In this document: positions 11,764-32,001 of the stretch, piece by piece | Numbering within the stretch: the first letter of the stretch is position 1 | Layout of the letters: each line of letters begins with the position of its first letter | Assembly: GCA_030065615.1 (NCBI GenBank) | Contig: JASJDR010000029.1 | Coordinates: 1 to 48,775 of the forward strand | From: Xenococcus sp. MO_188.B8 | Lineage (GTDB): Bacteria; Cyanobacteriota; Cyanobacteriia; Cyanobacteriales; Xenococcaceae | DNA length: 48,775 nt | Reading direction: 5' to 3' | Made by a program: the position numbers and the translations under genes | Notes under the pieces: model-generated | Seen by the model: the letters and a program-made list of their open reading frames with translations, nothing else | Databases searched by the model: none | Told to the model about the DNA's origin: nothing

Positions 11764-11962
11764 GCGATTTAATTTTAATTTAACTTATTAAAAATTGAGA
11801 GCCTATTCGTAAACTCACTGTAATCATTCCTTAAAGGATAAGGCTTACAACAAAGTTAGGACTTTTAAGCTATTTGATAACCAAAAGATAATGATAGTAA
11901 AACTTTCAGGATTCTTAAGATTTACTTTAAGAATCAGTTCTGAATTCAAGATTGAATTTTTA

Positions 11963-12973: not shown

Positions 12974-13007
12974 TAATTTTAATCCAAAATGTTGTATTAA
13001 ATCTTTT

Positions 13008-13958: not shown

Positions 13959-14015
13959 GAAGGTTAATTAGGAATTGTTAATTGAAAATTTTACAAAATT
14001 TAAACAAGAGAAATA

Positions 14016-15089: not shown

Positions 15090-15151
15090 GATAAATTTTA
15101 ATATTTGATTTTTGTTATTCAACTATTATCTATTTGATTTTTAGGTTTAAG

Positions 15152-16375
15152 TTACAATTTTTTAATAGATCGAGAAATTGGAGTATGCTGATACATTATT
15201 TTTCGATGAGTTGATATAGCTATAGCAATATTGAAAGCCCAATACACAGACCAAGGACTTGTATTAGATTCGGTAATACTAACTAGAAACAATAACGTCA
15301 AATACCATAATGGCCACAAGGCGAAAGCAGATTTAGTAGAGCGGATACAAGCTAAAGAACGGAAAAAGATTGTTAAAAAAACTAATGTAGCAATTACGAA
15401 ACCGATCAACCCAAATGCAAGCAATATTTCAAGGAAACCATTATGACTATTGGGTGCTGCCCAATCTGAATCTATTAGTAACAAAAGTTTATCCGATTCC
15501 CCAGATATTCCTGACCAAAACGAATCGTAACCATAACCCAACCAGGGGCGATCCATAAAACTTGATATAGATCCTTCCCAAAGCGGGAGACGACCTGTTA
15601 AAGTAGCGTCTTTACCCAAGGCTTCAAGAAAGAAGCCTAGATTAGGAACTAATAATATTAACGAACAGCCAACGGCTATAATGAAGATACTAAAAAAAAT
15701 TACTATCCAGTTGTAGGACCAGCGGAAGGTTCTGTATAAGGGGTAAAGTGCCAGTAAAGTAAGCACAGCCACCAGGGCAGTTTTAGATTGAGAAAGGATA
15801 ATTAGTCCGAAGGAAGCAGCACAACCTGACCAGAAAAGCCATCGATATTTAGATGAGTCTATTGCTGACAAAAAGAACACCATCGTACCTATGACCATCA
15901 TACGACCAAGCTGGTTTTTATGTGCAAAAGCACCTCGCCAAGCTCCGTCAAGAGTTCCTCCCCACATTATTCCTTGTTGTGGTAAGACTAATCCGAAAAA
16001 GTAGCTCAAAAGTATAGAGATAGCAAATGTCCAAGTTAATATTCTAAGTTGATCTCTTGGGTTATAGCGTACTGCAAGAGACAAGCCAATTATAAAGGTA
16101 CCCATAAGTTTAAGAGTTGAATATAAGGACGTGCCATAGTCTACCGACCAAGAAATGGAAATAATAATTAGTCCAATGTATAACCAGAAAAATTTTTCTT
16201 GGACTAATGTCCAAATTGTCTTTTTCCAATAAATGAACAAAAACCAAAGCGAAGTAGGATAAGCAATAACTGCTAAGATTTTTATAAATACATAGCCTCC
16301 AGTCAGCATTAAAATGCTCAATACCATAGAGCCTTGATCTATAAATTGGATAATTTTTGCTGTTGTAATTTTCAA
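15152..16375 (-). CDS. O-antigen ligase/Wzy-type polymerase
   Basis: Integral membrane protein of 407 residues with about ten to twelve hydrophobic helices and the Wzy_C/O-antigen-ligase pattern. The large periplasmic loop has GRLPLWEGSISSFMDRPWLG, YGYDSFW, and then SHNGFLEILLAFGLIG with the conserved His. In a Wzx/Wzy pathway it polymerises repeat units on the periplasmic side. Its start overlaps the end of the flippase gene by 4 bp (ATGA type), implying translational coupling. Ligase and polymerase cannot be told apart from sequence; polymerase is preferred from context. Confidence 0.88.
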   Translation of the reverse strand: MKITTAKIIQFIDQGSMVLSILMLTGGYVFIKILAVIAYPTSLWFLFIYWKKTIWTLVQEKFFWLYIGLIIISISWSVDYGTSLYSTLKLMGTFIIGLSLAVRYNPRDQLRILTWTFAISILLSYFFGLVLPQQGIMWGGTLDGAWRGAFAHKNQLGRMMVIGTMVFFLSAIDSSKYRWLFWSGCAASFGLIILSQSKTALVAVLTLLALYPLYRTFRWSYNWIVIFFSIFIIAVGCSLILLVPNLGFFLEALGKDATLTGRLPLWEGSISSFMDRPWLGYGYDSFWSGISGESDKLLLLIDSDWAAPNSHNGFLEILLAFGLIGFVIATLVFLTIFFRSLACIRSTKSAFALWPLWYLTLLFLVSITESNTSPWSVYWAFNIAIAISTHRKIMYQHTPISRSIKKL

Positions 16376-17664
16376 ACTTCACCTCCCCTACCCTGATGCC
16401 AGTAATACCAAGCGACGATACCCCAGCATCCCATTCCTAATAAACTTTCGGAGGCTAGAGTAGACCAGGCTGCACCTTTCCAAGAATATAAAGGGATTAA
16501 CCACAAATTAATCATAAAGTTAAAAAAAGCAGTACTTACTTGCATGGCAGAACGGAAACCTTGGAGATCTGCACCTGTCAGGGTATTTCCTGCGAACATA
16601 TTTAAACTTTTAAGTAATGGCAATAAAGCAAGCCAACGTAAGACTTCTATGGCACTAGCATATTCTTCTCCTAATATGTATGGAACTATAGATGCAAAGA
16701 GCAAAATTGCGACTCCAATAGCCAAACCATAAACCATTGCTAAAGGGAGAAGCTTTTTTACAAAACTAACACTAGTACGGATACCTTTAGCTCCCTGCTT
16801 AAAAAAAATCGGATAGCTAGAAAATAGCAAAGAAGAAAGAGGAATAAAGGCCACACTTATCAAACGGTAAGCAGCAGCATAAACACCGGTTGCTTCTAGT
16901 GTAGAAAGCCTTGCAAGCATTGTTTTGTCAATGTGACCATATATATTTCTAGAAGAGTTACTAACTGAAAAGTAAAAGCCTTGAACTAGCTCTGATTTCA
17001 AGAGTTCTATATCTAATCTAGGTGGACCTAAATGATACTGCACAAGAATAAAAGCAATAACAGTAGCAAAAATTTTGCTGATCATATATAGACATGCCCA
17101 AGTGATTATTCCCTGTTGAGGAAAGAAAGATACTAGACATAAGGCTGCCATTAACTTTGTTATGCATGTTAAAACCTGCAATTGAGCTACTACATTTAAC
17201 TTATTAATAGCTTGAAAAACTTGAATTGCTGTGTTTAAAATAATAGCAAATATTAAGTCGGATATAATAGCAAAGAGAATAACTAAAAAGGGAATATTTG
17301 AATTTAAGAATGCAGGAAAAGTCAAAAGTATGAAAGTATTTAAAACCAAAGCAGAAACAAGAATAATAAAGAGAGCATTCCCCCAGTAAACTGCAAATGA
17401 ACTAAGATTTCTACTAACTTTTTTAAGTAAAATAAAGCCACTTCCCAATCCCACGAAAGGAGCAAAAATTTGATTTAATGCGATTACACTTACAAAAGCT
17501 CCGTATTGTTTTATCCCCAAAGCACGGGTAATAATTACGAAGCAAGCAGCCTGAATAAAGATATTAATACTCTGAGCTAGAAAAACCCAAAGTGTATTGG
17601 CAGCGAGAGAGTTTTTTCTCAGACGGCTGATACGCAATTTGATATTATTATAATTTATCATCAA
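16372..17664 (-). CDS. Wzx-type polysaccharide flippase
   Basis: MATE/PST-superfamily flippase of 430 residues with about 12 to 14 transmembrane helices, expected to move undecaprenyl-linked repeat units across the inner membrane. The N-terminus (LAANTLWVFLAQSINIFIQA, then ALGIKQYGAFVSVIALNQI) and the middle (RNIYGHIDKTMLARL, ATGVYAAAYRLISVAF) carry the usual Wzx patterns. A cytoplasmic basic N-terminal segment (RISRLRKN) precedes the first helix. It is coupled to the downstream Wzy-like gene by a 4-bp overlap and separated from the upstream tyrosine-kinase gene by 430 bp. Confidence 0.9.
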   Translation of the reverse strand: MMINYNNIKLRISRLRKNSLAANTLWVFLAQSINIFIQAACFVIITRALGIKQYGAFVSVIALNQIFAPFVGLGSGFILLKKVSRNLSSFAVYWGNALFIILVSALVLNTFILLTFPAFLNSNIPFLVILFAIISDLIFAIILNTAIQVFQAINKLNVVAQLQVLTCITKLMAALCLVSFFPQQGIITWACLYMISKIFATVIAFILVQYHLGPPRLDIELLKSELVQGFYFSVSNSSRNIYGHIDKTMLARLSTLEATGVYAAAYRLISVAFIPLSSLLFSSYPIFFKQGAKGIRTSVSFVKKLLPLAMVYGLAIGVAILLFASIVPYILGEEYASAIEVLRWLALLPLLKSLNMFAGNTLTGADLQGFRSAMQVSTAFFNFMINLWLIPLYSWKGAAWSTLASESLLGMGCWGIVAWYYWHQGRGGEV

Positions 17665-17798
17665 TATAGTTATAAAATTATCTTCTTATAAAAAGCGGAA
17701 GTCAAAAGCCCTAAAGGATAACGCTCCGCATATCAAAAGTATTTATTATCAGGCTTTTGAACTGTTGTAAATAGTGAGCTTATATACGTATACGTCCG

Positions 17799-17899
17799 CT
17801 AGTGGTGCTTGGTAAGTCTTGCTAAAACTTAGAAGTATCCGAATTTTGATTGATCAAGATTTTATAAATGATGGGCTTGTTTAAGCCCATGTTTACTTG
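17799..17899 (+). repeat. Dispersed 101-bp repeat, copy A
   Basis: The block begins CTAGTGGTGCTTGG and contains TTAGAAGT, AATTTTGATTGATCAAG and TATAAATG in fixed order. A second block of the same length at 39462-39562 has the same order of words (CTAGTGGAGCTGGG, TTAGAAGT, AATTTTGATTTATCAAG, CATAAATG). By eye about 70% of positions agree with a few small gaps. Each copy ends in a short hairpin. Both lie in non-coding DNA, and the shared words correspond to no protein I recognise. Confidence 0.65.
17871..17890. terminator. Hairpin, possible terminator of the tyrosine-kinase gene
   Basis: ATGGGCTT pairs perfectly with AAGCCCAT across a GTTT loop. It lies between the wzc-like and wzx genes on the minus strand. 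No T-tract follows in either direction, so termination is uncertain; it may instead be part of the dispersed repeat that it overlaps. Confidence 0.4.
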
Positions 17900-18094
17900 T
17901 TTGAAATTTATACCTCATTTGCTTAGAATCTATAATTAAATGACACTCTCTTGTAAGTTTGGTAGAGCCTTTTATATACTGTGAACGGATGATATTTAGA
18001 CTTTTTAAAAAGTAGCAAAAGCATTATCTAGTTTGAATCTCAACCTTTTATTAAAAGTTCAGTTTTAACTAACCAGATTGCAGTATCTTTATTG

Positions 18095-20368
18095 TTACTG
18101 TTCTACTGCATTAACAACCATACCAATAACATTTTGTTCAGTCATTTCCAATAAATTTTGACACTCGTTAGCTTTAGGATTATCCAATACTCCCAACCTT
18201 GCTACTAAAAGAATTCCATCAGCTATTTTGCCAAGATTTAAAGTCTCTAAGTGGTCTATTACAGGGGGAGAATCTATTAAAATTAGATCGTAGTCTTGAG
18301 ATAAATCTTTAATTAATGATTCCATTTTTTGAGAATTGATAATATCTAAAGGATCATCGGTTTTTTTGCCAGATAAAAGTAAATCTAAATTATCAGCAAC
18401 ACGATGACGTAATAGATCCAGCATTTTTCCATCACTTATGATATCTGTTAAGCCTTCATCATGAGTAATTTGCCAAATTTTTTGTTGTGAAGGGTGATGT
18501 AGATTAGCATCAATTACGAGAACTTTCTGCCCTAATTTAGCTAGAGTTCGTGCAAAATTTGCCGTCACTTCAGACTTTCCCTCTTGAGCAGTGGAACTAG
18601 AGATTACAATGGTTTTAGCTGATCTCTTATCACTAATAATTTTAAACCTAGCTTGCAACATAGAAAATGATTTGCTGCTCAACAAAGGGTCAATTATATT
18701 TGGTGAACTCTTTACTATTGTTCCTTCTTCTAAGGAAACAATGGGGGCTGGCTGATTGTTGAGGGGAAAAGTTTGGCAATCATCAAAATTATTAAATAAA
18801 GAGCTAACTCTAGTAAGATCGTTAATAGTGATACTGTTATGAGCTCTAGTAAATTGTTCCATCAATTTTTTTAATGGAGACAAATGACTTATTTTATCAA
18901 AATTAGGAATGGTTCCTAAAATTGGATAATTGAATATTTGCTGAAGTTTTCCAAGATTTTTAACGGACTTATCAGTTATTTCTAAACTAGTCATGGTAAC
19001 GATACTCATGATAGTACCCATCGCAATTCCCAGAGCCATGATAATAATCAACTGACTGTTATCAGAGACAATTTGAGCAGATTCGATAATTCGAGCATTG
19101 TTAAAATTTTGTTGCTCAGCCAATGTAATATTTTCTCGACTTTTTAAAAGATGTCTATAATTAGATTGAGCAGCTTCTAGCTGTAGTTTTAAATCATTGT
19201 ATTCATTCTCTATTTCTGGGATTCTATTAAGTTCTTGCTGATCTCCGTGCTGAATACTCTGCAAATGAGCTATTTTTTTTTCTAATCCTGATATTGTTTG
19301 CTCTAAGCTGGATAAATTACTAATTAATTCCTCCTTGATAGTAGATCTAATACTATTATGCAAATCAGCAATTGTAATTTGCTTACTTGCAGAGCTGGGA
19401 ACTTTTTTAATTTGATTTTCCAGAAAATTCTCTACCGATTCAACTTGCTCGTAAAGACTAATCATATTTGGATTTTCTGCCTGAAAAATGTCCTGTCTTT
19501 GAAGGATTTTATTTTGTAACTCAGATAAATTCTCTAATGCTTCTGGAACATTAGGAGATTGAATAATATTCTGTAATGCGATCGCCTGTTGCGGATTTAG
19601 CCCCAGTTGATTCTGTATCTTTTCTGATTTACTGCGGGCTTCTTGAAGTTGAACTTGAATATTATTAATTTGATTTTCAAGGTTATTATTATTTTTTATT
19701 GTACTTATTGATTCTTCCTCAAAAGAAATTATTTGATATTTTTCTTTGAATTCTTGCAAAGCTTTTTCTCTTTGTGCTACTCTCCTTCTTGCTTTTGGTA
19801 ATTGTTCGTCAACTATTTGCTGAGCCACTATAACAGGTTTACGACTATTTAAAAGATTGCTTGAAAGATAGGTCTTCATTAATTGATTAACGATATTTCT
19901 TGCTTCTTGCTCATTATCACTGATATAAGAAACTTCCAAAACATCTGTTCCGATAACTGGTTCAATATTAAGTTGGCCCACCAATTCTTGGGCAGAAATA
20001 AATGAGCTAATTAAGTCCAATTTTTTAAGATCATCTATTGTTTCTTCTGCAATAGGGATAGATTGAAGCACTTCAATTTCGGTATTGATAGGATTGGCAT
20101 CACGCTCTAAAGCAGCCAAGCTGTTAATATCTTCTCCTATCCCTGTGAGGGCAGAAGTTTGATCTATTTTGAAGAGTAATTTACCTGTAGCTATATATTT
20201 AGGTTTTTGCTGACTTGCAAAAATAGCTGATAAAAAAAAGCTTGCAAGCAAAATAAAAAATCCTACTTTCCAGCGCCTCCTGAAAGCGTACCAAAGATTG
20301 TACAAATCAATCTCAATCTCTGTAGCTGCGGCACTTAAATTCTGATTCATCATCTGAAACTCCTGCAT
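18095..20368 (-). CDS. Wzc-like chain-length regulator with BY-kinase domain
   Basis: Inner-membrane polysaccharide co-polymerase fused to a bacterial tyrosine kinase, 757 residues. A Wzz domain starts near residue 15 with a first membrane helix at about 34-52. A long coiled coil (180-420) fills the periplasmic part, and a second helix sits near 430-455. The kinase domain follows: Walker A SSSTAQEGKSEVTANFA near 585, Walker A' VLVIDANLHHPS, and Walker B YDLILIDSPPV. The C-terminus is VVNAVEQ, with none of the tyrosine cluster that Wzc autophosphorylates. M1 is used here, but M6 or M7 (MMNQNLS) is equally possible. It is the first gene of the minus-strand cluster. Confidence 0.93.
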   Translation of the reverse strand: MQEFQMMNQNLSAAATEIEIDLYNLWYAFRRRWKVGFFILLASFFLSAIFASQQKPKYIATGKLLFKIDQTSALTGIGEDINSLAALERDANPINTEIEVLQSIPIAEETIDDLKKLDLISSFISAQELVGQLNIEPVIGTDVLEVSYISDNEQEARNIVNQLMKTYLSSNLLNSRKPVIVAQQIVDEQLPKARRRVAQREKALQEFKEKYQIISFEEESISTIKNNNNLENQINNIQVQLQEARSKSEKIQNQLGLNPQQAIALQNIIQSPNVPEALENLSELQNKILQRQDIFQAENPNMISLYEQVESVENFLENQIKKVPSSASKQITIADLHNSIRSTIKEELISNLSSLEQTISGLEKKIAHLQSIQHGDQQELNRIPEIENEYNDLKLQLEAAQSNYRHLLKSRENITLAEQQNFNNARIIESAQIVSDNSQLIIIMALGIAMGTIMSIVTMTSLEITDKSVKNLGKLQQIFNYPILGTIPNFDKISHLSPLKKLMEQFTRAHNSITINDLTRVSSLFNNFDDCQTFPLNNQPAPIVSLEEGTIVKSSPNIIDPLLSSKSFSMLQARFKIISDKRSAKTIVISSSTAQEGKSEVTANFARTLAKLGQKVLVIDANLHHPSQQKIWQITHDEGLTDIISDGKMLDLLRHRVADNLDLLLSGKKTDDPLDIINSQKMESLIKDLSQDYDLILIDSPPVIDHLETLNLGKIADGILLVARLGVLDNPKANECQNLLEMTEQNVIGMVVNAVEQ

Positions 20369-20604
20369 AACTAATGTTCGTGGGATAACAAAAATTGTAG
20401 TTCTCTTAGAGAAACAAGCATAAATCTATTAGTTTTATTTAGGCTGGCAAGCTTGGATAAATTTAAAAAATGGCATAAATGGTAGTTCTACTACTGTTGT
20501 CTTTCTGGAAATATTATTTTTTTAATAAGTCTCAAGAGTCATTTAGATATGCGCTTCCTATGATTTTGCCAAAGCCGACCAAAGTAGTTATTGGCTTTTT
20601 GAGA

Positions 20605-20840
20605 TTAAAAGCTAAATAGCCAATCTAGGCGAGAGGATTTATAAGGGTGAATTTGGAGTGCCATTCCTTCATCGCCATCTCCATATCCAGGTAAAAGACC
20701 TCCTATGTCAATTAGGTGAGGAATAACTTCTAGCATTCTTCGCAGTAAATCTTTGTTATTGGAGATCGACTCCTTAGCAATACTTCAGTTAGGGACATTG
20801 CTTTTAAGCGCATAAAATACCATTTAAGATTTTTAGCCAT
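20605..20840 (-). pseudogene. Relic of a heparinase II/III-like polysaccharide lyase
   Basis: From the ATG at 20840 the frame reads KNLKWYFMRLKAMSLTEVLL, the typical N-terminal segment of heparinase II/III-family proteins in polysaccharide clusters. After a stop and frame change it continues MLEVIPHLIDIGGLLPGYGD and GDEGMALQIHPY, which resembles the catalytic-domain region of the same family. Everything between and after is deleted, leaving 236 bp of a gene that is normally about 1.9 kb. It sits directly upstream of the tyrosine-kinase gene and is probably a lost member of this locus. Confidence 0.65.
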
Positions 20841-21248
20841 AATTCACACATAAAGTCTTAATTTATCTTTATTTTCTGCAAAAAACTTTCTATTCGTTAG
20901 ATGAATAAACAAATGTATTAAACAATAATTATGAGTATGTAGTAGTAAATGTATTAAATGGGAAAGTAATAAATGTCCGAAATATATAAGACAATTTCCT
21001 GTAATAATCTACTACACAATATAAGGCTCAATACCGTACTTCCAGCAATTGCATACATAATTTAATTCAAAGAAAAAAATACTTATAGCAATTACCTAAA
21101 GTATAAACACCTAATTTTTATCAAGTATTCTACATAAATGTATTTGTAAATTGCAATATTAGGATTAAAAACTTAAAAATCTTTTAATATTTGAAATTGT
21201 TTAATTTCATCCAAGAAAAATTCCTGAAAGCGATATTAAGAGTGTACG

Positions 21249-21262
21249 TAAGTATATACTTA
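21249..21262. promoter_or_regulatory. Palindrome TAAGTATATACTTA, candidate operator
   Basis: A perfect 14-bp palindrome that differs from the palindrome at 21668-21681 only at the two symmetric positions (A/T instead of C/G), giving the shared form TANGTATATACNTA. Both lie upstream of the priming sugar transferase. A dimeric regulator site is plausible, but no regulator gene is nearby. Confidence 0.4.
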
Positions 21263-21667
21263 GTTAATATTCCTTTAATGATTACATTCGTATTTAGTGT
21301 TTATTCTTCAAAACACTTCTATAATACAAGCTTTGCTTAACTTCTGTTATGTAAGGATTGCATGGATTTCGTCAATTTAAGTAAAGCCAGAGTATTAAGC
21401 ATACTACCAAAAAAATACTAAAATATTATGCAAATTTGATATGTAAAAAATTTTTATACAAATCATAAAAATCATACAAAATTATTATCAATAATATTCG
21501 ATAAAAACACTTATTTATTTAGTAATCAAGAAAATTCTTGCTGGACAATATAGATAAATATTGCTAAAGAATATAAAAAAGTCTATCAACTTGAAAATTT
21601 TATATTTACTTAATTTTAATTTTGATTGATTTTTTGTATTAATGATATTGTCGAAGTAAATCTAGAT

Positions 21668-21681
21668 TACGTATATACGTA
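21668..21681. promoter_or_regulatory. Palindrome TACGTATATACGTA, candidate operator
   Basis: A perfect 14-bp palindrome about 235 bp upstream of the priming sugar transferase and of the same form as the one at 21249. A shorter related palindrome, ACGTATACGT, lies at 17786-17795 upstream of the flippase gene. Confidence 0.4.
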
Positions 21682-21878
21682 CGTAAATAAAAACTGAATT
21701 AAATCTAATCTTTAAACATTCTAATTCTAGATTTTATAGCAATTTTGATATTCTTTTTCATGAGATTCTAGAATACTGATAGCGATTTTTTTTGACTAAG
21801 CTAAACGTTTTTTCAGATTCTTTAAAAGGGAATTCTGAATAAAAGCATATTAGAAGTGCTTAGTTATGTAGGTGTGAA

Positions 21879-21911
21879 AGAGGAGTGAATCTAACGATAG
21901 AGGAGTGAATC
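21879..21911 (+). promoter_or_regulatory. Duplicated ribosome-binding segment before the priming transferase
   Basis: The 13-mer AGAGGAGTGAATC occurs at 21879-21891 and again at 21899-21911, offset by 20 bp. The second copy places AGGAG about 10 bp before the ATG at 21916 and decides that start. The first copy is followed by no start codon at a useful distance. Confidence 0.7.
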
Positions 21912-21915
21912 AAAA

Positions 21916-22569
21916 ATGGTAACAAAAAGCCAAAAGATTTCTTATATTTTTCGTAAGACAAGGGGATTGGACTATTTCTCAAAACGTATATCTGACTATA
22001 TAGTTGCAGGGTTGCTTTTGAGTATTTTGTGGCCTATATTTATCTCAGTAGCATTCGCAATAAAGTTGGACTCTCCAGGTAATGTTTTTTTTAGACAAAC
22101 ACGTATTGGGTTGAATGGTAAGCATTTCAAGATCTGGAAATTCCGCACTATGGTACAAAATAGTGAGCATTTACAAAAGGATCTAGAGGCTCACAACGAA
22201 ATCAAAGGAGGAATAATTTTCAAAATAAAAAATGATCCTCGGATGACAAGAATTGGTAAGTTTCTGAGACGTTTTAGCCTCGATGAAATCCCGCAATTAT
22301 TTAATGTTCTCCTTGGGGATATGAGCATAATAGGTCCTCGACCATTGCCATTGAGAGATATTGAAAAAATGGATTCTGCTTTACAAATCCGCCATAAAGT
22401 ACTTCCAGGAATTACTGGTCTGGCTCAGGTAAATGGACGTTCTCAATGTAGCTCGGAAGAATTTTTCTACTGGGATAAGCTATATATCCAAAGATGGTCT
22501 CTTTGGTTGGACTTGAAAATTATGCTTAAGACTATACCAGTAGTAATTGCCAAAAAAGGAGCTTGTTAG
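21916..22569 (+). CDS. Bacterial sugar transferase (polyprenyl glycosylphosphotransferase)
   Basis: Priming enzyme that transfers a sugar-1-phosphate to undecaprenyl phosphate, starting lipid-linked repeat-unit synthesis. At 217 residues it has the short form: one N-terminal membrane segment (near 28-50) and the catalytic domain, without the extra helices of WbaP. Motifs: GNVFFRQTRIGLNGKHFKIW, KFRTM, LRRFSLDEIPQLFNVL, GDMSIIGPRPLP and PGITGLAQVNGRS. The end is basic and short (IAKKGAC). It opens the plus-strand half of the polysaccharide locus; a 180-bp gap separates it from the next glycosyltransferase. Confidence 0.93.
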   Translation: MVTKSQKISYIFRKTRGLDYFSKRISDYIVAGLLLSILWPIFISVAFAIKLDSPGNVFFRQTRIGLNGKHFKIWKFRTMVQNSEHLQKDLEAHNEIKGGIIFKIKNDPRMTRIGKFLRRFSLDEIPQLFNVLLGDMSIIGPRPLPLRDIEKMDSALQIRHKVLPGITGLAQVNGRSQCSSEEFFYWDKLYIQRWSLWLDLKIMLKTIPVVIAKKGAC

Positions 22570-22749
22570 AAATCAATCTTTAATAGCAACTGTAGTGGTG
22601 TGCAATCTGGTTCAGTGGAGATCCCCAGAAACTTTACCAATAAATCTATACAGATGCTTATAGTGCAACTATCGTAGTACAACTATCAAGTAATAGATTA
22701 ACCAAATTTTTGGGACTCAAACCAAATCAGAATTTAGGAGTAAAAAATT

Positions 22750-23985
22750 ATGCTCAAACCGACAAGGGTCCTCATTATAGTTGAGAATCTTCCTTCGCCT
22801 TTTGATCGTCGTGTCTGGATGGAAGCAACGACTCTAACAAAGGAAGGATTTGAAGTTTCAATTATCTGTCCTCAGGGTAAAGGCTATGAGAAAAGGTATG
22901 AAGTGATCGATAGTATTCATATATATCGTCACCCGATGCCACCAGAAATTAGTTCAGTAGTGGGCTATCTAACGGAGTATGCAGCAGCAGTATTTTGGGA
23001 GTTTTATTTAGCTCATCGCGTATGGTGGGAACGAGGCTTTGATATTATCCATATTTGCAATCCTCCTGATTTACTATTCCTAACAGCAGGATGGTTCAAA
23101 CTGATTAAGGGTGCCAAGGTAATCTTCGATCACCATGACATTAATCCAGAAATGTATGAAGCCAAGTATGGACGCAGAGATATTTTTTATTACGGACTAC
23201 GTTTAGTAGAACGTTTAACTTTTGCTTTAGCTGATACAGTTATTGCGACCAATGAGTCTTATCGTGAGATAGCACTAACTCGTGGTCGCAAAAAGCCAGA
23301 AGATGTTTTTGTAGTTCGCAGTGGTCCAGATTTATCTCGATTCCAACCAGTACCAGTTAACGAAGCCTACAAGCGCAATAAGGAATACCTAGTAGGTTAT
23401 GTAGGTGTTATGGGAGAGCCAGAGGGTATAGACTATCTCCTCGAATCAATACGCCATATTGTTTATGACCAAAATCGCCAGGACATTCACTTTATGTTGA
23501 TCGGTAGTGGTCCAATGTTCACACAACTGCAAAATCTAGCAGTTCAGCTAGGTATTGAGGAGTTTGTCGAATTTACAGGGCGAGTTTCTGATGAAGAACT
23601 ATTAGCACGACTTTCAAGTTGTGACATCTGTGTCAATCCTGACAAGAAAATGCCCTATAACGATAAATCCACTATGAACAAGATTATGGAATATATGGCT
23701 ATAGGCAAACCTATTGTCCAATTCGATCTTATGGAAGGAAGACGTTCGGCAGGAGAAGCATCTGTCTATGCTAAGGGCAATGATGCTATTGATTTTGCTG
23801 ACAAAATTCTTGAGCTATTAGCCGACCCTGAACAGAGGGAACAGATGGGAGCGATTGGTTTGCGTCGCATGGAAGAGAAACTTGAGTGGCGTTATCAAAT
23901 TCCTACTCTTTTACAGGCTTATGGGGTGAAAAACTGGTCGAAAATAATTACCGAAAAGACGAGTACTCAATTAAATGTCTTCTAA
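22750..23985 (+). CDS. Glycosyltransferase family 4 protein
   Basis: GT-B glycosyltransferase of 411 residues. The N-terminal domain begins VLIIVENLPSPFDRRVWMEA and includes DIIHICNPPDLLFL and KVIFDHHDINPEMY, patterns of GT4 enzymes near Wzx/Wzy loci. The C-terminal domain has LVGYVGVMGEPEGIDYLLES and DICVNPDKKMPYNDKSTMNK, followed by IMEYMAIGKPIVQFD in the usual E-x7-E region. No membrane helix is apparent. It lies 44 bp upstream of the dehydrogenase gene and probably shares its transcript. An AGGAG-like sequence precedes the ATG. Confidence 0.92.
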   Translation: MLKPTRVLIIVENLPSPFDRRVWMEATTLTKEGFEVSIICPQGKGYEKRYEVIDSIHIYRHPMPPEISSVVGYLTEYAAAVFWEFYLAHRVWWERGFDIIHICNPPDLLFLTAGWFKLIKGAKVIFDHHDINPEMYEAKYGRRDIFYYGLRLVERLTFALADTVIATNESYREIALTRGRKKPEDVFVVRSGPDLSRFQPVPVNEAYKRNKEYLVGYVGVMGEPEGIDYLLESIRHIVYDQNRQDIHFMLIGSGPMFTQLQNLAVQLGIEEFVEFTGRVSDEELLARLSSCDICVNPDKKMPYNDKSTMNKIMEYMAIGKPIVQFDLMEGRRSAGEASVYAKGNDAIDFADKILELLADPEQREQMGAIGLRRMEEKLEWRYQIPTLLQAYGVKNWSKIITEKTSTQLNVF

Positions 23986-24029
23986 ATATCTTCCGTTAAA
24001 ACTTTTTTAGTTTATAAGAATAATAAGCA

Positions 24030-25331
24030 ATGAAAATAAGTATTTTTGGAATGGGTTATGTTGGTGTAGTAACAGCAGCTTGCTTGGCAAGAGATGGTCA
24101 TCAAGTTGTTGGAGTGGACATCAGTCCAGATAAGGTTGCTTTAATTAATCGAGGTGAATCGCCAATTATAGAACCAGGTTTAGGCGATTTGTTAAAGGAA
24201 GCTGTTCAATCTGGTAATATTCGAGCAACAGTGGATGCCGAAACTGCAGTAGTAACAACGGAAATCTCCTTAATTAGTGTCGGGACTCCACCTATAGCAC
24301 AGGGAGAGCCAGATCTAAGTTATGTAATAGATGTTTGTAAAGACATCGCATTATCCGTCAAACAAAAGGGTACATCTCACGTAGTTATGTTACGTAGCAC
24401 TGTCCCTCCAGGTACTCTTGAATATTGCCAAAATCTGATGGAACAAGTTGCAGGAAAAGATTTAATTAGTACTGCTTTTAATCCAGAATTTTTAAGGGAA
24501 AGTTCGGCAATTAAAGACCATGACTGTCCTCCATATACCATCATTGGTACTGAATCTTCTGTAGCAGAACAAGCTGTGCGCCAGCTATATGACAAGGTAA
24601 AAGCACCAGTTCTTGTCGTGAAACCAAAAGTAGCAGAAATGGTTAAATATGTTGCTAATACCTGGCATGCCACTAAAGTAAGTTTTGCCAACGAAATAGG
24701 CAGGATTTCTAAGGCTTTTGGTGTTGATGGAAGAGAAGTAATGAATGTGATTGTGCAAGACGAAAAACTAAACATCTCACCTGTCTATATGCGTCCTGGT
24801 TTTGCTTATGGAGGCTCTTGTTTACCCAAGGATCTAGGTTCTCTACTTTATTATGCTCGCCGCAATAATGTTTTTGCCCCACTGCTTAATGCAGTTCCAG
24901 TCACTAATGATCTACAAATCAATCTTGCCGTAGAACAAATTTTAAGTTCTCAAGTTAAAAATATTGCGATTTTCGGTTTAGCATTTAAGTCGAATACTGA
25001 TGATTTAAGAGAAAGTCCTGCAGTATCACTGGTTAAAAGATTACTAGGTGAAGGTTTTCAAGTAAAAATTTATGACCCAGCAGTTTACAAATCTCATTTG
25101 ATGGGTACTAACTTGAATTATATTCAGCAGAACATACCTCATTTTCAAAACTTGTTGGTAGCTACTCCTAAAGAAGCTTTAGAAGGGGTTGATTTAGCTG
25201 TTACTACTCACAATACATCGGAAATTCGTCAAGCAATTGAGCAAGCTTCTCACAAAATCAAAATTCTTGATTTAGTTGGTGTTTTCATTGAAAAACCAAA
25301 GCATCGGGAGTATGAAAGCTTAGCCTGGTAA
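24030..25331 (+). CDS. UDP-glucose/GDP-mannose 6-dehydrogenase family enzyme
   Basis: NAD-dependent sugar-nucleotide dehydrogenase that oxidises the C6 alcohol to a carboxylate, supplying an activated uronic acid. Features: N-terminal Rossmann motif IFGMGYVGVVTAACLA (residues 5-20), STVPPGTLEY, EFLRESSAIKD, and the catalytic-cysteine motif FAYGGSCLPKDLG with Cys264. The C-terminal domain has FKSNTDDLRESPAVSLVKRL. The central stretch (VSFANEIGRISK, GVDGREVMNVIVQDEKLNIS) resembles AlgD, so GDP-mannose is a good candidate substrate; UDP-glucose or UDP-HexNAc is not excluded. Acidic sugars agree with an anionic exopolysaccharide. Confidence 0.93.
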   Translation: MKISIFGMGYVGVVTAACLARDGHQVVGVDISPDKVALINRGESPIIEPGLGDLLKEAVQSGNIRATVDAETAVVTTEISLISVGTPPIAQGEPDLSYVIDVCKDIALSVKQKGTSHVVMLRSTVPPGTLEYCQNLMEQVAGKDLISTAFNPEFLRESSAIKDHDCPPYTIIGTESSVAEQAVRQLYDKVKAPVLVVKPKVAEMVKYVANTWHATKVSFANEIGRISKAFGVDGREVMNVIVQDEKLNISPVYMRPGFAYGGSCLPKDLGSLLYYARRNNVFAPLLNAVPVTNDLQINLAVEQILSSQVKNIAIFGLAFKSNTDDLRESPAVSLVKRLLGEGFQVKIYDPAVYKSHLMGTNLNYIQQNIPHFQNLLVATPKEALEGVDLAVTTHNTSEIRQAIEQASHKIKILDLVGVFIEKPKHREYESLAW

Positions 25332-25619: not shown

Positions 25620-27029
25620 ATGACATTATTTTTAAATCTTAAAGGTTACGCCCAAAAAATTTTACGTCGAGGGTCTTTGTTTTATAACATACTTCAAGAA
25701 CTAAAAAATAATGAACAACTTTCGTATGAACAACTAATTAATTACCAAAACCAAAAATTACGCTTGACAGTAAAAAAAGCATATCAAACTGTTCCCTATT
25801 ATAGACAATTATTCGATGAATTAAAATTAACCCCAGAAGCCATTAAAACAATCGATGATCTGCAATTACTACCTATTATGAGTAAATCAGATATTCGAGG
25901 TAAAGAGAAGCAGTTTGTCTCAAATGCTGTTCCCTGGAAATACAAAACAACTACCAGTGGGACAACAGGTACACCCGTTAATTTATTTCGGGATTACTAT
26001 AACATCAACTTTGAACATGCTACTTTTTGGCGACGAAGATCCTGGGGAAAATGTTCATTGGATGATCCAATGGTTATTCTCAAGGGAGATATCATAATTC
26101 CTGCTAATGCTACAAAACCTCCATTTTGGAAGTACGTTTCTTCTGATAATATGTTACTGATGTCTTCTTATCATTTATCAGATCGATTTATTCCTTACTA
26201 TTTAGATAAGCTTCGTAATTTCAATTCATCTATTATTGAAGGCTTTCCCTCTAATATATATAGATTGGCACGCTATATGCAGCTTCATCAAGAATTGCCA
26301 CTTAATTTTAAGGCAGTATTTACTTCGTCTGAAACATTACTACCTCATCAGTGTCAAGTTATTGAAGAATATTTGGGGCAAATTTTTGATTATTACGGTC
26401 AATCAGAACGTGTTGCTCATTTTTCTCATTGTGAACATGGGAATAACCATTATGTAATGGACTATAGTATAGTCGAGTTTTTACCTACAAAATCTAGCGG
26501 CTTGTATAAAATAGTGGGAACGACTCTGCATAATGCAGCAATGCCTTTAATCAGATATGATACCAAAGATTTTGTTCGAATTAGTCATCGCTCTTGTCCT
26601 TGCGGGCGTGCTTTTCCTGTGGTTGATCTTATTGAAGGTCGCCAAGAAGACTATATAGCTACTCCCTGCGGGAAATTCGTCGGAGGAATCGGGATAGTTT
26701 TTACGAATGTACCTAATCTTATAGAAGGTCAAATCATACAAGAAGAAATAGATTCCCTGCGTGTTCTCATTGTCACGACAGAAAATTTCACTGATGATGA
26801 TCGGAATGTTTTGTTGAAGAATATACGGGAGCGGTTGGGAGCCAATATGGAGATTATTATTCAAAAAACGGCAGCTATTCCCCGTACCAAAAGAGGAAAA
26901 TTTAAGTTGACTTTATCTAAACTAAATTCTAAGTACGGAGCACAACGTGAACTTTATTCAGAATTAAGTATTCAAGAGAATAATAATCACTATGGAAACT
27001 CAACAGCTCAATTTACTGGTTCCAGATGA
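25620..27029 (+). CDS. PaaK/CapK-like adenylate-forming enzyme
   Basis: Member of the phenylacetate-CoA ligase/CapK branch of ANL enzymes, 469 residues, expected to activate a carboxylic acid as its acyl-adenylate. Motifs: TTTSGTTGTPVN (110-121), the phosphate loop; DYYGQSER (257-264), the A5 motif; RYDTKDF (312-318), the A7 motif; EGRQEDYI (339-346), the A8 motif; and PRTKRGKF (421-428), holding the C-terminal lysine region. His/Cys pairs (FSHCEHG near 268-274 and HRSCPCGR near 323-330) match the zinc-binding ligands of this family. No carrier-protein or thioesterase gene is seen nearby. The next gene starts 38 bp inside its 3' end, showing tight coupling. The substrate is unknown. Confidence 0.87.
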   Translation: MTLFLNLKGYAQKILRRGSLFYNILQELKNNEQLSYEQLINYQNQKLRLTVKKAYQTVPYYRQLFDELKLTPEAIKTIDDLQLLPIMSKSDIRGKEKQFVSNAVPWKYKTTTSGTTGTPVNLFRDYYNINFEHATFWRRRSWGKCSLDDPMVILKGDIIIPANATKPPFWKYVSSDNMLLMSSYHLSDRFIPYYLDKLRNFNSSIIEGFPSNIYRLARYMQLHQELPLNFKAVFTSSETLLPHQCQVIEEYLGQIFDYYGQSERVAHFSHCEHGNNHYVMDYSIVEFLPTKSSGLYKIVGTTLHNAAMPLIRYDTKDFVRISHRSCPCGRAFPVVDLIEGRQEDYIATPCGKFVGGIGIVFTNVPNLIEGQIIQEEIDSLRVLIVTTENFTDDDRNVLLKNIRERLGANMEIIIQKTAAIPRTKRGKFKLTLSKLNSKYGAQRELYSELSIQENNNHYGNSTAQFTGSR

Positions 27030-27459
27030 ATTGCCTACCCACAATGAACTCAGTGAAGCTAATAAAGAAAAAGTATTTCTCTCATTAAATCTTGCCTTAG
27101 AGTCATTAGATTCGGATTGTCAAGAGCAAGCTATTGCGCAAGTTAATCAGGCATTAATGATTTTAGGAACAGCTGATACATTGCCTAACGACATTCCTAT
27201 TGAAGGTACTAGAAAACGCAGAGAAGCTTTGGATTATGATAACTACTTCAACGTTAATCATGTTAAATCACAAGAGCCTGAAATATTTCTAGTCAGCAGT
27301 ATTTTAATTGCTTACCAACGCTTTCTTTTACTAGGTCATAATTGCAATAAATTTGATTCTCATAATATCGAAATTCAGCGACAAGGATTTAGAACCTATT
27401 GTAAACTCTTATCTAGAGTTTTTAATCTATCTTTAAATGAGAAGCATGAACAAAATTAA
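26992..27459 (+). CDS. Unknown 155-residue protein of the PaaK cassette
   Basis: I do not recognise it. The N-terminal 70 residues are acidic and helical (NKEKVFLSLNLALESLDSDC, then EQAIAQVNQALMIL). A short charged stretch (EGTRKRREALDYDNYFNV) leads to a helical C-terminal half (EIFLVSSILIAYQRFLLLGH). No signal peptide or metal motif stands out, although His, Asp and Glu residues are frequent. It starts 38 bp inside the adenylate-forming gene and overlaps the next gene by 23 bp at its end, so the three reading frames are physically interlocked. It probably acts with them. Confidence 0.75.
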   Translation: METQQLNLLVPDELPTHNELSEANKEKVFLSLNLALESLDSDCQEQAIAQVNQALMILGTADTLPNDIPIEGTRKRREALDYDNYFNVNHVKSQEPEIFLVSSILIAYQRFLLLGHNCNKFDSHNIEIQRQGFRTYCKLLSRVFNLSLNEKHEQN

Positions 27460-27979
27460 TCCTCAAATAATTTGGAAAGGTTTTCATTGGTCCTTTTTTA
27501 TTAATGTTCAAGGTCTGATTATTTCTATGTTGCGCTTTGAACAATCAATGGCAAGAGAAGATATTGAGCTAGCGAGAATTGAATTAAAAACGGCAGCTAA
27601 TTTGCTGTTAGCTTCAGCAGCATCAATGGAACTTGCAGGAGACTTTAGCCGGGAAGAATATGAAGATTATATTCGTCCAACAATGATGGTTCCTCAGGTG
27701 CAGTCTGATGATTTCAGTGGTTTAATGTTTTGGGATCATTCTTATCTCATGATGATCTGGAAAAAGATTCAACCTAAGTTCAAAAATATGCCTCTGGCTT
27801 TACAAGCTGAACAAGATGAATTTATTGATGCATATATGGTTCTGTCTAAATCTCATAAAAAAGTTTGTAGTAAATTTGGAGGAAATGAAATTGGTAGTTT
27901 ACGGTCTAGTAATACGACAGCCATTCAAACTCTAGAAAAATTCGAAAAACACCGCAAAAAATTAATAGCTAATTGTTAA
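27437..27979 (+). CDS. Unknown all-helical 180-residue protein of the PaaK cassette
   Basis: I do not recognise it. The sequence reads as an all-alpha soluble protein rich in Met, Trp, Glu and His: NPQIIWKGFHWSFFINVQGL, ARIELKTAANLLLASAASME, MFWDHSYLMMIWKKIQPKF, and a C-terminal basic helix (TLEKFEKHRKKLIAN). Scattered acidic and His residues (FSREEYEDYIRPTM, FWDHSYL) would allow a metal site, but no known motif is seen. The start at 27437 overlaps the previous gene; the ATG at 27446 is an alternative and has GAGAAG just upstream. Pairing with the 155-residue protein suggests a two-component complex. Confidence 0.75.
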   Translation: MRSMNKINPQIIWKGFHWSFFINVQGLIISMLRFEQSMAREDIELARIELKTAANLLLASAASMELAGDFSREEYEDYIRPTMMVPQVQSDDFSGLMFWDHSYLMMIWKKIQPKFKNMPLALQAEQDEFIDAYMVLSKSHKKVCSKFGGNEIGSLRSSNTTAIQTLEKFEKHRKKLIANC

Positions 27980-28082
27980 AATTTTTTGAATTAATTTTTT
28001 GATTTATAAAAGAGATTACCTTATATCCTCTTGAATTAATTGTTAAATCTTAACTAATTAGGAAATATTTACGGTTGGATCT

Positions 28083-28748
28083 ATGCAAAGAATTATTGAG
28101 CCAGAATTAATGATTGAAGAAGAACAAAGCCATGCTTATGCTCAAGCTGATTTTGTAGAACCCAATATCCATTTTGTTAATCTCTTTAAAGAGACTTTTG
28201 GTGAGATTTCCAACGGAAATATTCTTGATATAGGTTGTGGCAATGCAGACATCACGTTGCGTTTTGCCAAAGCTTATCCTGATTGTTTTATTGATGGGAT
28301 TGATGGTTCAGAATCAATGCTAAGTTATGCACGTAAAACTCTACTTGAAGCTTCACTAGAATTACAAAAAAGAGTTAGATTAATACAAGGGATTGTTCCT
28401 GATGTTAAGTTACCTCAAGCACATTATGATGTTATTATTAGCAATAGTGTATTGCATCATATTCATAATCCATATGTTTTGTGGCAATTTATTAAAACTT
28501 ATGGAGTTGATGGCACAAAAATTTTTATTGGGGATTTATTTCGTCCTTCAAGTCCAGAAAAGGCTATGGAGATAGTTGAATTATATGCTAAAGATGAACC
28601 CGAGATCCTGAAACGTGATTTTTACAATTCTCTGTTAGCTGCATTTGAAATAACTGAAATTAGAGAACAATTAAAAATAGCTAATATCGATATTTTGTCA
28701 GTTGAACAAATTAGCGATCGCCATGTTCTAATTTCGGGATTTTTGTAA
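28083..28748 (+). CDS. Class I SAM-dependent methyltransferase
   Basis: Rossmann-fold methyltransferase, 221 residues. Motif I is NILDIGCGNADITLRFAKAY near 48-67, then the acidic loop IDGIDGSESMLSYARK, the motif LIQGIVPDVKLPQAHYDVII, and SNSVLHHIHNPYVLWQF. It starts 103 bp after the helical unknown gene and is probably in the same unit. As the last gene it could O-, N- or C-methylate the product of the adenylate-forming step; the target is unknown. Its last residues (SDRHVLISGFL) cover a HIP1 site. Confidence 0.88.
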   Translation: MQRIIEPELMIEEEQSHAYAQADFVEPNIHFVNLFKETFGEISNGNILDIGCGNADITLRFAKAYPDCFIDGIDGSESMLSYARKTLLEASLELQKRVRLIQGIVPDVKLPQAHYDVIISNSVLHHIHNPYVLWQFIKTYGVDGTKIFIGDLFRPSSPEKAMEIVELYAKDEPEILKRDFYNSLLAAFEITEIREQLKIANIDILSVEQISDRHVLISGFL

Positions 28749-28784
28749 AAGAGCATTGCTTAAGGTAAATCTTGTAAGGTTTTT

Positions 28785-29053
28785 CAGGGCGACGAAACAC
28801 CTTTGATGCTAAACTACCGGGTACATGCAGGTCAAATGGAAACGAGTTCCTGGTATTTAGATCCTTTAGAAGGTTCCCGATTTGTGGGAGAAGCTGGGCA
28901 CTTTTTAGATGTTTTTTCGTTTATCACGCGATCGCGTCCAGTATCAGTAGTTGCCAGATCTTTGCGCCCTCAGCACATTACTCAGGGCAACAGATGCCAA
29001 TTTACATAGATAACTTGCTGGACAATACCTTGGCGACACTAGAGGCTGTTTAA
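28785..29053 (+). pseudogene. Relic of a Gfo/Idh-type oxidoreductase
   Basis: The frame GDETPLMLNYRVHAGQMETS, followed by SSWYLDPLEGSRFVGEAGHF, matches the C-terminal (Gfo/Idh/MocA) part of the bi-domain oxidoreductases found in exopolysaccharide clusters. It breaks after RSLRPQHI. In another frame QQMPIYIDNLLDNTLATLEA runs to a stop at 29053 and looks like the protein's extreme C-terminus. Both the upstream two thirds and a middle part are missing. It lies 36 bp after the methyltransferase stop. Confidence 0.7.
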
Positions 29054-30575: not shown

Positions 30576-30738
30576 TTTGTTTTGATCATATTTTTCACCA
30601 AGAATGCGTGTTTGAAAGCCTCGGTACTTGAGGACGAGGAGGAAAAACACGCCAACAAAATAAACCCAGAACACTTAGCTGGGTAAACGCGAAGCGTCTT
30701 CCTAATAGTATAATCATGCTTGTGAGTTTTGATTGTGT

Positions 30739-32001
30739 ATGGAACAAGTTCTAACGCTAGTTGTCAAGCTTCAAGTTGACATCAATCAGCAGCAATTGTT
30801 GAATGATACAGTTACAGCTTTTGCCTCTGCTTGTAATTGGATTAATCAAAATGTTAATCCTAATTTGACCAACAGAAACTCGATTCAAGCTGTCTGCTAT
30901 AAAGATGTGAAAGCTCAGTTTGGATTAACAGCTAATCATGTGGTTAGAGCTTGTGCCAGAATTGGGGCTAATCGTTTAACGGCAAGGCAAAAAGCGGTGC
31001 GACCCCGCGTCGGCGACAGACGCAAACGCCAGTTCCTTCAAGTCGGGGAACCTGCCCAACGGACTGGCTTGGGAACGCGCACCAAGACAGGGAAAAGGGT
31101 TAAGTATATTAAGCCTACTAGTTTCGATTGCGACGCGAGAACTTTTCGCTTTATTGAAGAAACATGGGCTGTTAGCATTAGTACTATTGGGAAAAGGCTA
31201 ACTTTGCCAATTAATGCCAGTAACTATCATCGAGGTCAACTCAAGGGACAAAAACCAACATCGGCTCAAGTATGTTTACATCGTGATGGGAATTGGTATG
31301 TTCATATTCAGCTAAAATCTGAAGCACCAAAGACCAAGAAGACTAATAATGTTATCGGGGTTGATTTTGGCAGACGGGATATAGCTGTAACTAGTACAGG
31401 AAAGTCATGGTCGGGAAAGGAGATTCAAGAAACTAGAGACAAATATAGTCGTGTAAGAGCCTCTCTCCAAAAGAAAGCGTCTCAAGGCACAAGAGCTACT
31501 AGACGGAGAGCTAGACAGATTTTGAAACGGTTATCGGGACGAGAGAGAAGGTATCAAGCATGGCTCAACCACAATATATCTAAAGTAATCATAGCCGAAG
31601 CCAAAGAAACCCAATCCTTTGTCAGTATTGAAGACTTAGCGGGCATTAGGGAAAGAACGAATCAAAAACCAAGAAACAAGACGGAAAGAAGACGTTCTAA
31701 CTCTTGGGCTTTCTACCAATTAAGAACATTCCTTGAGTACAAACGTCTTAAAGAAGGGGTTGAACTTCTAGCTATTAATCCAGCCTATACTTCTCAGACG
31801 TGCCATTGCTCTCTGCACATAGGTTTAAGAAGCAACAAGTCTTTTAAATGCAGTAATCAGACTTGTCGCTGGACTGGTGATGCCGACGAAAATGGTTCCA
31901 AAATGATTGCTTTAGTCGGCTTGAGTGTAAACCAGGCTGGAGGTTCTCAGTTCTTGACTTGCTCGATAACTGAAGGGCTACTAAAAGCCTCATGCCTTTA
32001 G
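30739..32001 (+). CDS. tnpB: RNA-guided nuclease TnpB
   Basis: RuvC-like, RNA-guided DNA endonuclease of IS200/IS605-group elements, 420 residues from the ATG at 30739. A TTG two codons earlier is possible but less likely. RuvC-I is NVIGVDFGRRDIAVTS with Asp209. RuvC-II is SFVSIEDLAGIRE with Glu298. RuvC-III is GDADENGSKMIALVG near 380-394, so all three acidic positions are kept. The zinc knuckle is atypical: Cys355 and Cys357 as CxC, with a Ser where the usual second Cys lies, then Cys371 and Cys376. Residues about 86-117 look like an insertion coded by a repeat (separate entry). The helical arginine-rich middle (RATRRRARQILKRLSGRERR) is normal for the family. Confidence 0.9.
   Translation: MEQVLTLVVKLQVDINQQQLLNDTVTAFASACNWINQNVNPNLTNRNSIQAVCYKDVKAQFGLTANHVVRACARIGANRLTARQKAVRPRVGDRRKRQFLQVGEPAQRTGLGTRTKTGKRVKYIKPTSFDCDARTFRFIEETWAVSISTIGKRLTLPINASNYHRGQLKGQKPTSAQVCLHRDGNWYVHIQLKSEAPKTKKTNNVIGVDFGRRDIAVTSTGKSWSGKEIQETRDKYSRVRASLQKKASQGTRATRRRARQILKRLSGRERRYQAWLNHNISKVIIAEAKETQSFVSIEDLAGIRERTNQKPRNKTERRRSNSWAFYQLRTFLEYKRLKEGVELLAINPAYTSQTCHCSLHIGLRSNKSFKCSNQTCRWTGDADENGSKMIALVGLSVNQAGGSQFLTCSITEGLLKASCL
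30994..31090 (+). repeat. GC-rich repeat embedded in frame in tnpB
   Basis: A block that begins GCGGTGCGACCCCG and ends GGGAACGCGCACCAAGA is much more GC-rich than the surrounding tnpB and adds about 32 residues between the N-terminal domain and KYIKPTS. The same two end sequences frame a shorter block in the second tnpB (48587-48638). Inside is a stretch that can fold on itself. The frame is kept, so it resembles coding palindromic elements. Confidence 0.7.

Follow-up and report, generated by a model that had tools for sequence, protein, structure and literature searches.

FbnL and FbnM form a two-protein heme peroxidase that makes L-3,4-dihydroxyphenylalanine (L-DOPA) for Dmaq siderophores, and the pair serves as a marker for such siderophores, according to PMC12971057. 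SfmD, a 3-methyl-L-tyrosine peroxygenase (6vdp), and TyrH (LmbB2/Orf13) are reported to use H2O2, or O2 together with a reductant; cyanobacterial orthologues of LmbB2 are mentioned in general terms in PMC3851162. Here we analyze a 48,775-nucleotide contig of Xenococcus sp. MO_188.B8 (JASJDR010000029.1; hereafter, the window), from a genome of 8.26 Mb in 354 contigs, in which four consecutive genes (genes 1–4; Table 1) encode a PaaK-like ligase, two small proteins and a methyltransferase. We propose, with moderate confidence in the explanation as a whole, that genes 2 and 3 encode an enzyme of the FbnL/FbnM (FbnLM) type that forms, with the methyltransferase gene, a cassette beside a polysaccharide locus. 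The enzyme type is known and the setting is new; in the accessible part of the open-licence literature we found no report of FbnLM outside siderophore clusters. Loci and genomes are labeled L and G with a number where they need to be told apart, G000 being the genome of the window and C154 a second contig of that genome.

Genes 2 and 3 correspond to the two halves of an SfmD-like heme enzyme

Genes 2 and 3 looked new because neither obtained a useful score with any Pfam or NCBIfam family. When gene 3 was searched singly against solved structures, the one match was SfmD (E 8e-10, residues 187–349 of 365), and a profile search returned SfmD at E 1.5e-29, followed by TyrH at E 0.0018. Residues H101, H140 and C144 of gene 3 (numbering of the 180-aa open reading frame, ORF) align with SfmD H274, H313 and C317, of which we take the two histidines to be heme ligands and the cysteine to be the thioether cysteine; these three residues and H17 are invariant in all 14 sequences aligned. 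The pattern suggests that gene 3 anchors the heme by two of its histidines, with a thioether cysteine as a probable further link. When the predicted model of gene 3 (predicted local distance difference test, pLDDT, 86) was searched with Foldseek, MarE, TyrH, TDO and IDO ranked close to the top (probability up to 1.00, best E 8e-3), with Z 14.7 over 166 residues for MarE, where helical models may reach 14 by chance. SfmD was not among the 50 best-listed structure matches of this model, despite the sequence-profile match. Taken together, the model matches and the SfmD profile match place gene 3 in the predicted fold of the heme-dependent aromatic oxygenase superfamily.

A single-sequence search of solved structures with gene 2 gave nothing useful, and the N-terminal half was recognized through profiles and models. 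The gene 2 profile matched the N-terminus of three fused, single-chain relatives (hhalign 98.7%, E 3e-16) and, more weakly, the RenD/G172 pair (72%, E 3e-5); some cyanobacteria carry such a long protein, 5 of the 14 matches of the first survey having frames of 340–387 aa. For the gene 2 model (pLDDT 80.9), SfmD was the first Foldseek match (probability 1.00, E 0.041), aligned on SfmD residues 18–168 over 142 residues at 3.7 Å (Z 8.1). With gene 3 covering residues 187–349, the pair tiles SfmD, so that by sequence and predicted model genes 2 and 3 together correspond to one SfmD. We consider it almost certain, on this homology, that the two genes encode a two-chain heme oxygenase. In the initial annotation of this stretch the two middle proteins resembled nothing known; the profile searches of both instead assign them to the SfmD-like, FbnL/FbnM type, and their place in a characterized family counts against the proposal as first made.

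Relatives of gene 3 were found in 13 of 386 genomes of a phylum-wide sample and 39 of 388 of an order-wide sample. Across 79 loci, which are 82 less three (L053, L084 and L091) on contigs repeated from L021, L027 and L028 and are not all independent, 72 had separate genes for the halves and 4 had a fused form, and an N-half match was not found in 3, namely L030 and L034 (= RenD), which are single long frames, and one fragment. We rejected a frameshifted single gene because the split is retained in 72 of the 79 loci. Single-chain SfmD-like proteins also occur in cyanobacteria at L026, L027, L028, L029 and L030; those of L028 and L029 lie near a gene that by eye encodes a pyridoxal phosphate-dependent decarboxylase, and that of L030 lies inside a nonribosomal peptide synthetase (NRPS) cluster that also encodes proteins resembling RenB and RenC.

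The window pair lies outside the clade of Dmaq-type loci

Genes 2 and 3 are adjacent on one strand and appear to encode the N- and C-terminal halves in that order; we call them FbnL/FbnM-type from their similarity to genes of Agrobacterium siderophore-type loci and from the description in the paper cited above. Gene 3 is 44–47% identical to the copies in these loci, and gene 2 is 31% identical to the upstream partner (over 142 residues, E 3e-17, in a single comparison with the A. vitis locus). The Agrobacterium plasmid loci run NRPS, methyltransferase, class III aminotransferase, MbtH, the pair and polyketide synthase (PKS); both of the loci read also include a luciferase-like monooxygenase, and one of them includes a TonB receptor. 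On a Gloeocapsa plasmid the order is NRPS, thioester reductase protein, methyltransferase, aminotransferase, MbtH and the pair.

Scanning genome contigs with a single protein yielded nothing, and an alignment-based scan yielded 63 loci, a count that still includes repeats (L053, L084, L091), fragments and near copies. A gene labeled NRPS, PKS, thioester reductase, fatty acyl-AMP ligase (FAAL) or class III aminotransferase was present at 57 of these, and 49 had a Dmaq-type aminotransferase or Dmaq-type methyltransferase; the labels are best matches to chosen reference proteins, and ORFs under longer overlapping frames were missed (e.g., the L032 pair). The six loci with no such gene were L035, L036, L055, L084, L096 and L097, of which L036 and L096 are short contigs, L055 lies on a contig that starts directly ahead of the pair, and in L084 the halves are fused. 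In addition, split pairs with NRPS or PKS genes were seen in metagenome-assembled genomes of Verrucomicrobiales, Pedosphaera and Planctomycetaceae (L061, L063, L069 and L076), extending the pair beyond cyanobacteria and proteobacteria.

In a tree of 74 gene 3 relatives (of 79; the fragments L096 and L089 and the near copies L077–L079 were left out), the window grouped with L097 and L035 in one clade (Shimodaira–Hasegawa-like approximate likelihood ratio test, SH-aLRT, 99); the Dmaq-type loci fell in another clade, of 63 rows (SH-aLRT 92), that excludes these three. The second FbnLM copy of the Xenococcus genome, on C154, grouped with that of G567 (SH-aLRT 97).

Gene 4 is linked to the pair in two arrangements

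The two nearest loci, L035 (genome G565) and L097 (G569), are from Pleurocapsa and belong to a sample of 291 genomes; both keep the order FbnL–FbnM–methyltransferase, with gene 4 matches at E 2e-106 and 9.5e-119, respectively. DNA homology to the window extends over 26981–28748 in L097 (78%) and over 26992–28750 in L035 (74%). Pairwise ratios of nonsynonymous to synonymous substitution rates (dN/dS) among the three loci were 0.28–0.34 for gene 2, 0.16–0.20 for gene 3 and 0.18–0.21 for gene 4, placing all three genes under purifying selection. Gene 4 had matches at 1e-25 in 53 of the 291 genomes, and identity exceeded 38% in only six (G000, G569, G565, G567, G404 and G536).

Genes 2–4 thus stand side by side in three genomes, and in a fourth, G567, FbnLM and a gene 4 orthologue share one cluster. 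That cluster (L138:1228-10246) carries on one strand a methyltransferase 58% identical to gene 4, two class II aldolases, FbnL, FbnM, an amine oxidase, a P450 and an NRPS with adenylation, thiolation and thioesterase domains (A-T-TE). Because a gene 4-type methyltransferase occurs here as well as in the order FbnL–FbnM–methyltransferase, the link between methyltransferase and FbnLM takes two forms. We judge it rather likely, from this conservation, that gene 4 acts in the same pathway as genes 2 and 3.

The Xenococcus genome holds a counterpart of the G567 cluster on C154 (L018:7283-11699), with two aldolases, FbnL, FbnM and an amine oxidase in the same order; no methyltransferase, P450 or A-T-TE NRPS was recognized beside FbnLM there, on a contig that ends about 500 bp after the amine oxidase. 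The aldolase–FbnLM–amine oxidase cluster is an arrangement new to us and suggests a DOPA-derived product. The amine oxidase has matches at 1e-70 in five of the 291 genomes (G000, G404, G486, G552 and G567) and, in the stretches fetched, adjoins FbnLM only in G000 and G567. One could therefore imagine that the window cassette serves the C154 pathway and provides it with the methyltransferase that G567 encodes within the cluster; the similarity of gene 4 to the G567 enzyme and the lack of a methyltransferase beside FbnLM on C154 would fit. We hold this to be possible but rather doubtful, since G565 and G569 keep FbnLM and the methyltransferase and are not named among the five amine oxidase genomes, the best match to the G567 P450 in G000 (E 2.4e-6) is no clear orthologue, and the NRPS matches of G000 (best 37% identity) are not specific.

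Other assignments of gene 4 were discarded. It showed no detectable relationship to RenB/RenC-type methyltransferases, and its similarity to the Dmaq-type methyltransferase of A. vitis was limited to 43 residues (E 1e-5). A gene 4-like methyltransferase near the fused protein of L026 (E 1e-22) was not used as support because 47 of the 53 genomes with a match hold members of this broad family, at 38% identity or less. In L097, a protein upstream of FbnL that was first labeled HDO-like belongs to no Pfam or NCBIfam family and is unrelated to the iron-containing redox enzyme of L153; a short open frame behind the methyltransferase (L097:3103-3315) resembles by eye the beginning of a KAS III gene, and Pfam finds nothing in it.

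Gene 1 and the polysaccharide locus

The ORF coordinates bear out the arrangement described in the initial annotation, with four genes on one strand, overlaps of 38 bp (genes 1 and 2) and 23 bp (genes 2 and 3), and a gap of 103 bp before gene 4. The second start codon of gene 3 is the likelier one, because the two closest relatives start at or contain MKK/MNK where the window has its second methionine, and it would shorten the second overlap to 14 bp. The low dN/dS values, including 0.20 for gene 1 against its relative in G531, indicate that genes 1–4 are real genes and not chance frames.

Table 1 Features of the four-gene region of the window and their predicted assignments
Feature	Coordinates	Strand	Size	Assignment
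Gene 1	25620..27029	+	469 aa	PaaK-like (ANL superfamily) ligase
Gene 2	26992..27459	+	155 aa	Putative FbnL-type N-terminal half of SfmD-like heme tyrosine hydroxylase
Gene 3	27437..27979 (ORF; likelier start 27446)	+	180 aa	Putative FbnM-type C-terminal heme-binding half
Gene 4	28083..28748	+	221 aa	Class I S-adenosylmethionine (SAM)-dependent methyltransferase
Oxidoreductase remnant	28776..28973	+		Piece of a bi-domain oxidoreductase, corresponding to residues 563-628 of a 755-aa relative (76% identity)

The earlier reading of gene 1 as a member of the PaaK branch of the ANL superfamily was borne out by its translation, which contains a TTSGTTGTP loop and SCPCG cysteines, presumably the ANL motif and the zinc ligands of the PaaK/CapK branch. 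Among solved structures gene 1 matches 4r1l_A (E 4e-21), and it also scores with PaaK-like models of NCBIfam (DVU_1553 family); because it falls below every curated NCBIfam cut-off shown (for TIGR02155, 80.1 bits against 646.3 bits), it is PaaK-like and not PaaK. At 1e-40, only one other of the 291 genomes has a match, G531 of the same family (60% identity). There the ligase lies between a glycosyltransferase, identified by eye, and a 755-aa bi-domain oxidoreductase that follows it directly, with a heparinase-like and a UDP-glucose dehydrogenase-like protein further on (also by eye), and no FbnM match was found in that genome.

Homology between the ligases of the window and G531 ends at 26924, and 66 residues of the oxidoreductase remain right behind gene 4, from which it follows that genes 2–4 occupy the place of most of the oxidoreductase gene. 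The 442-aa G531 relative lacks the tail of gene 1 beyond 26924 in which the first overlap falls, so the 38-bp overlap is a junction and not an old interlock. Since the sole close relative of gene 1 precedes the oxidoreductase whose remnant stands behind gene 4, gene 1 is more likely a polysaccharide-locus gene, and it probably takes no part in the pathway of genes 2–4. Upstream of gene 1, positions 10657–25331 hold an exopolysaccharide-type locus with glycosyltransferases, a sulfotransferase, PGA_cap, Wzy_C, Polysacc_synt, Wzz/AAA, a sugar transferase and UDP-glucose dehydrogenase. Downstream of gene 4 and the remnant, an ORF at 30733–32001 appears by eye to be TnpB-like (IS605-type).

The initial annotation had regarded all four genes as a candidate small biosynthetic system, and of this proposal the small-molecule chemistry of genes 2–4, by a putative two-chain heme tyrosine hydroxylase type and a methyltransferase, is supported; membership of gene 1 is weakly supported, so that the four-gene system stands only in part. 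In such a pathway FbnLM would make DOPA, gene 4 would methylate it, and the PaaK-like ligase would activate the product, or an acid derived from it, for transfer, for example onto the polysaccharide. The shared strand, the overlaps and the open, constrained reading frame of gene 1 are in keeping with this, as are two collinear stretches in L097, similar to the PaaK DNA of the window, that precede FbnL, one with an in-frame stop. This remnant makes the neighborhood older than the genome of the window; it also shows that genes 2–4, retained under constraint, outlived the ligase in L097. No PaaK-like stretch was seen within 514 bp upstream in L035, no PaaK-like gene was present among the ORFs retained from L018–L097, and no PaaK-like match passed the 1e-3 threshold in the genomes of L097 and L035, which are 82 and 81% complete. 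As the sole close relative of gene 1 in the 291 genomes stands beside polysaccharide-type genes in a genome with no FbnM match, we regard a single four-gene pathway as unlikely. A more specific variant, in which methylated catechols are attached to the exopolysaccharide by means of the PaaK-like ligase as a catechol "glue" or a metal-binding sheath made with no NRPS, seems to us highly improbable.

The broken oxidoreductase gene and the nearby TnpB-like transposase relative might suggest the functionless remnant of a degenerate Dmaq siderophore cluster, the type of cluster in which this enzyme is at home. We find this quite improbable: genes 2–4 are under purifying selection, gene 4 is not a Dmaq methyltransferase, and the clade of the window pair lies outside the Dmaq-type clade.

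Proposed function of the cassette

We favor an FbnL/FbnM-type enzyme and methyltransferase cassette beside the polysaccharide locus, a reading built on computed homology, ligand positions, tiling on SfmD, clade, contexts, purifying selection and the oxidoreductase remnant. The gene 3 chain would carry the heme, held by its pair of histidines and the probable thioether cysteine, and the gene 2 chain would complete the fold. By analogy with characterized relatives the substrate is likely tyrosine; in this organism the enzyme would use H2O2 (or O2 and a reductant) to convert L-tyrosine, or a compound closely related to it, by hydroxylation into a DOPA-type catechol, and in clusters of the G567 type the amine oxidase could supply the H2O2. 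Gene 4 would then methylate this product or one derived from it, and we infer a methylated DOPA derivative. Genes 2–4 would represent a cassette of a lineage outside siderophore clusters that landed beside the polysaccharide locus, replacing most of the oxidoreductase gene, with gene 1 as a ligase of that locus.

Several observations weigh against this explanation. The FbnL/FbnM name comes from siderophore-type loci and not from sequences so named. The E-values of the structural matches are weak (at best 8e-3 for gene 3 and 0.04 for gene 2), and 27 unrelated-looking helical entries score at or above SfmD for the gene 2 model. The tree is a quick one made with no bootstrap, and the SH-aLRT of 92 is below the mark of 95. 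Gene 4 orthologues in G404 and G536 have no FbnLM in the flanks fetched, and the PaaK remnant of L097 shows that PaaK and genes 2–4 were neighbors already in an ancestor, so a link between them is possible.

Apart from Dmaq clusters, the FbnL/FbnM pair is present in no fewer than two further arrangements, FbnL–FbnM–methyltransferase and aldolases–FbnL–FbnM–amine oxidase, and mining genomes with FbnL and FbnM as the sole markers could predict siderophores that are not produced. If our proposal holds, what had been two unknown helical proteins would become a testable enzyme.

Comparison with known systems

In contrast to Dmaq clusters, inspection by eye of the window ORFs of at least 100 aa revealed no NRPS, PKS, thioester reductase, class III aminotransferase or MbtH, the last being shorter than that limit; a different contig of the Xenococcus genome carries its best aminotransferase match, within a frame of 2294 aa. 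The window pair also differs from those clusters in its methyltransferase and its separate clade. The PaaK-like ligases (4r1l; DVU_1553 family) are matched by gene 1, but their curated cut-offs are missed. Among members of the TyrH, TDO, IDO, PrnB and MarE superfamily, MarE, TyrH, TDO and IDO head the matches of the gene 3 model, whereas at the sequence level TyrH is only marginally similar (E 0.0018); we take TyrH and the other superfamily members to be single chains, unlike genes 2 and 3. SfmD of saframycin, named a 3-methyltyrosine enzyme, and RenD of renieramycin are similar to genes 2 and 3 over both halves, with the His/His/Cys positions retained, but they are single chains where the window has two ORFs, and RenC and RenB, encoded behind RenD, have no detectable relationship to gene 4. 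The closest likeness in organization is to FbnL/FbnM of fabrubactin in Agrobacterium and of anachelin-type cyanobacterial clusters, which likewise are adjacent genes for the N- and C-terminal halves of an SfmD-like enzyme.

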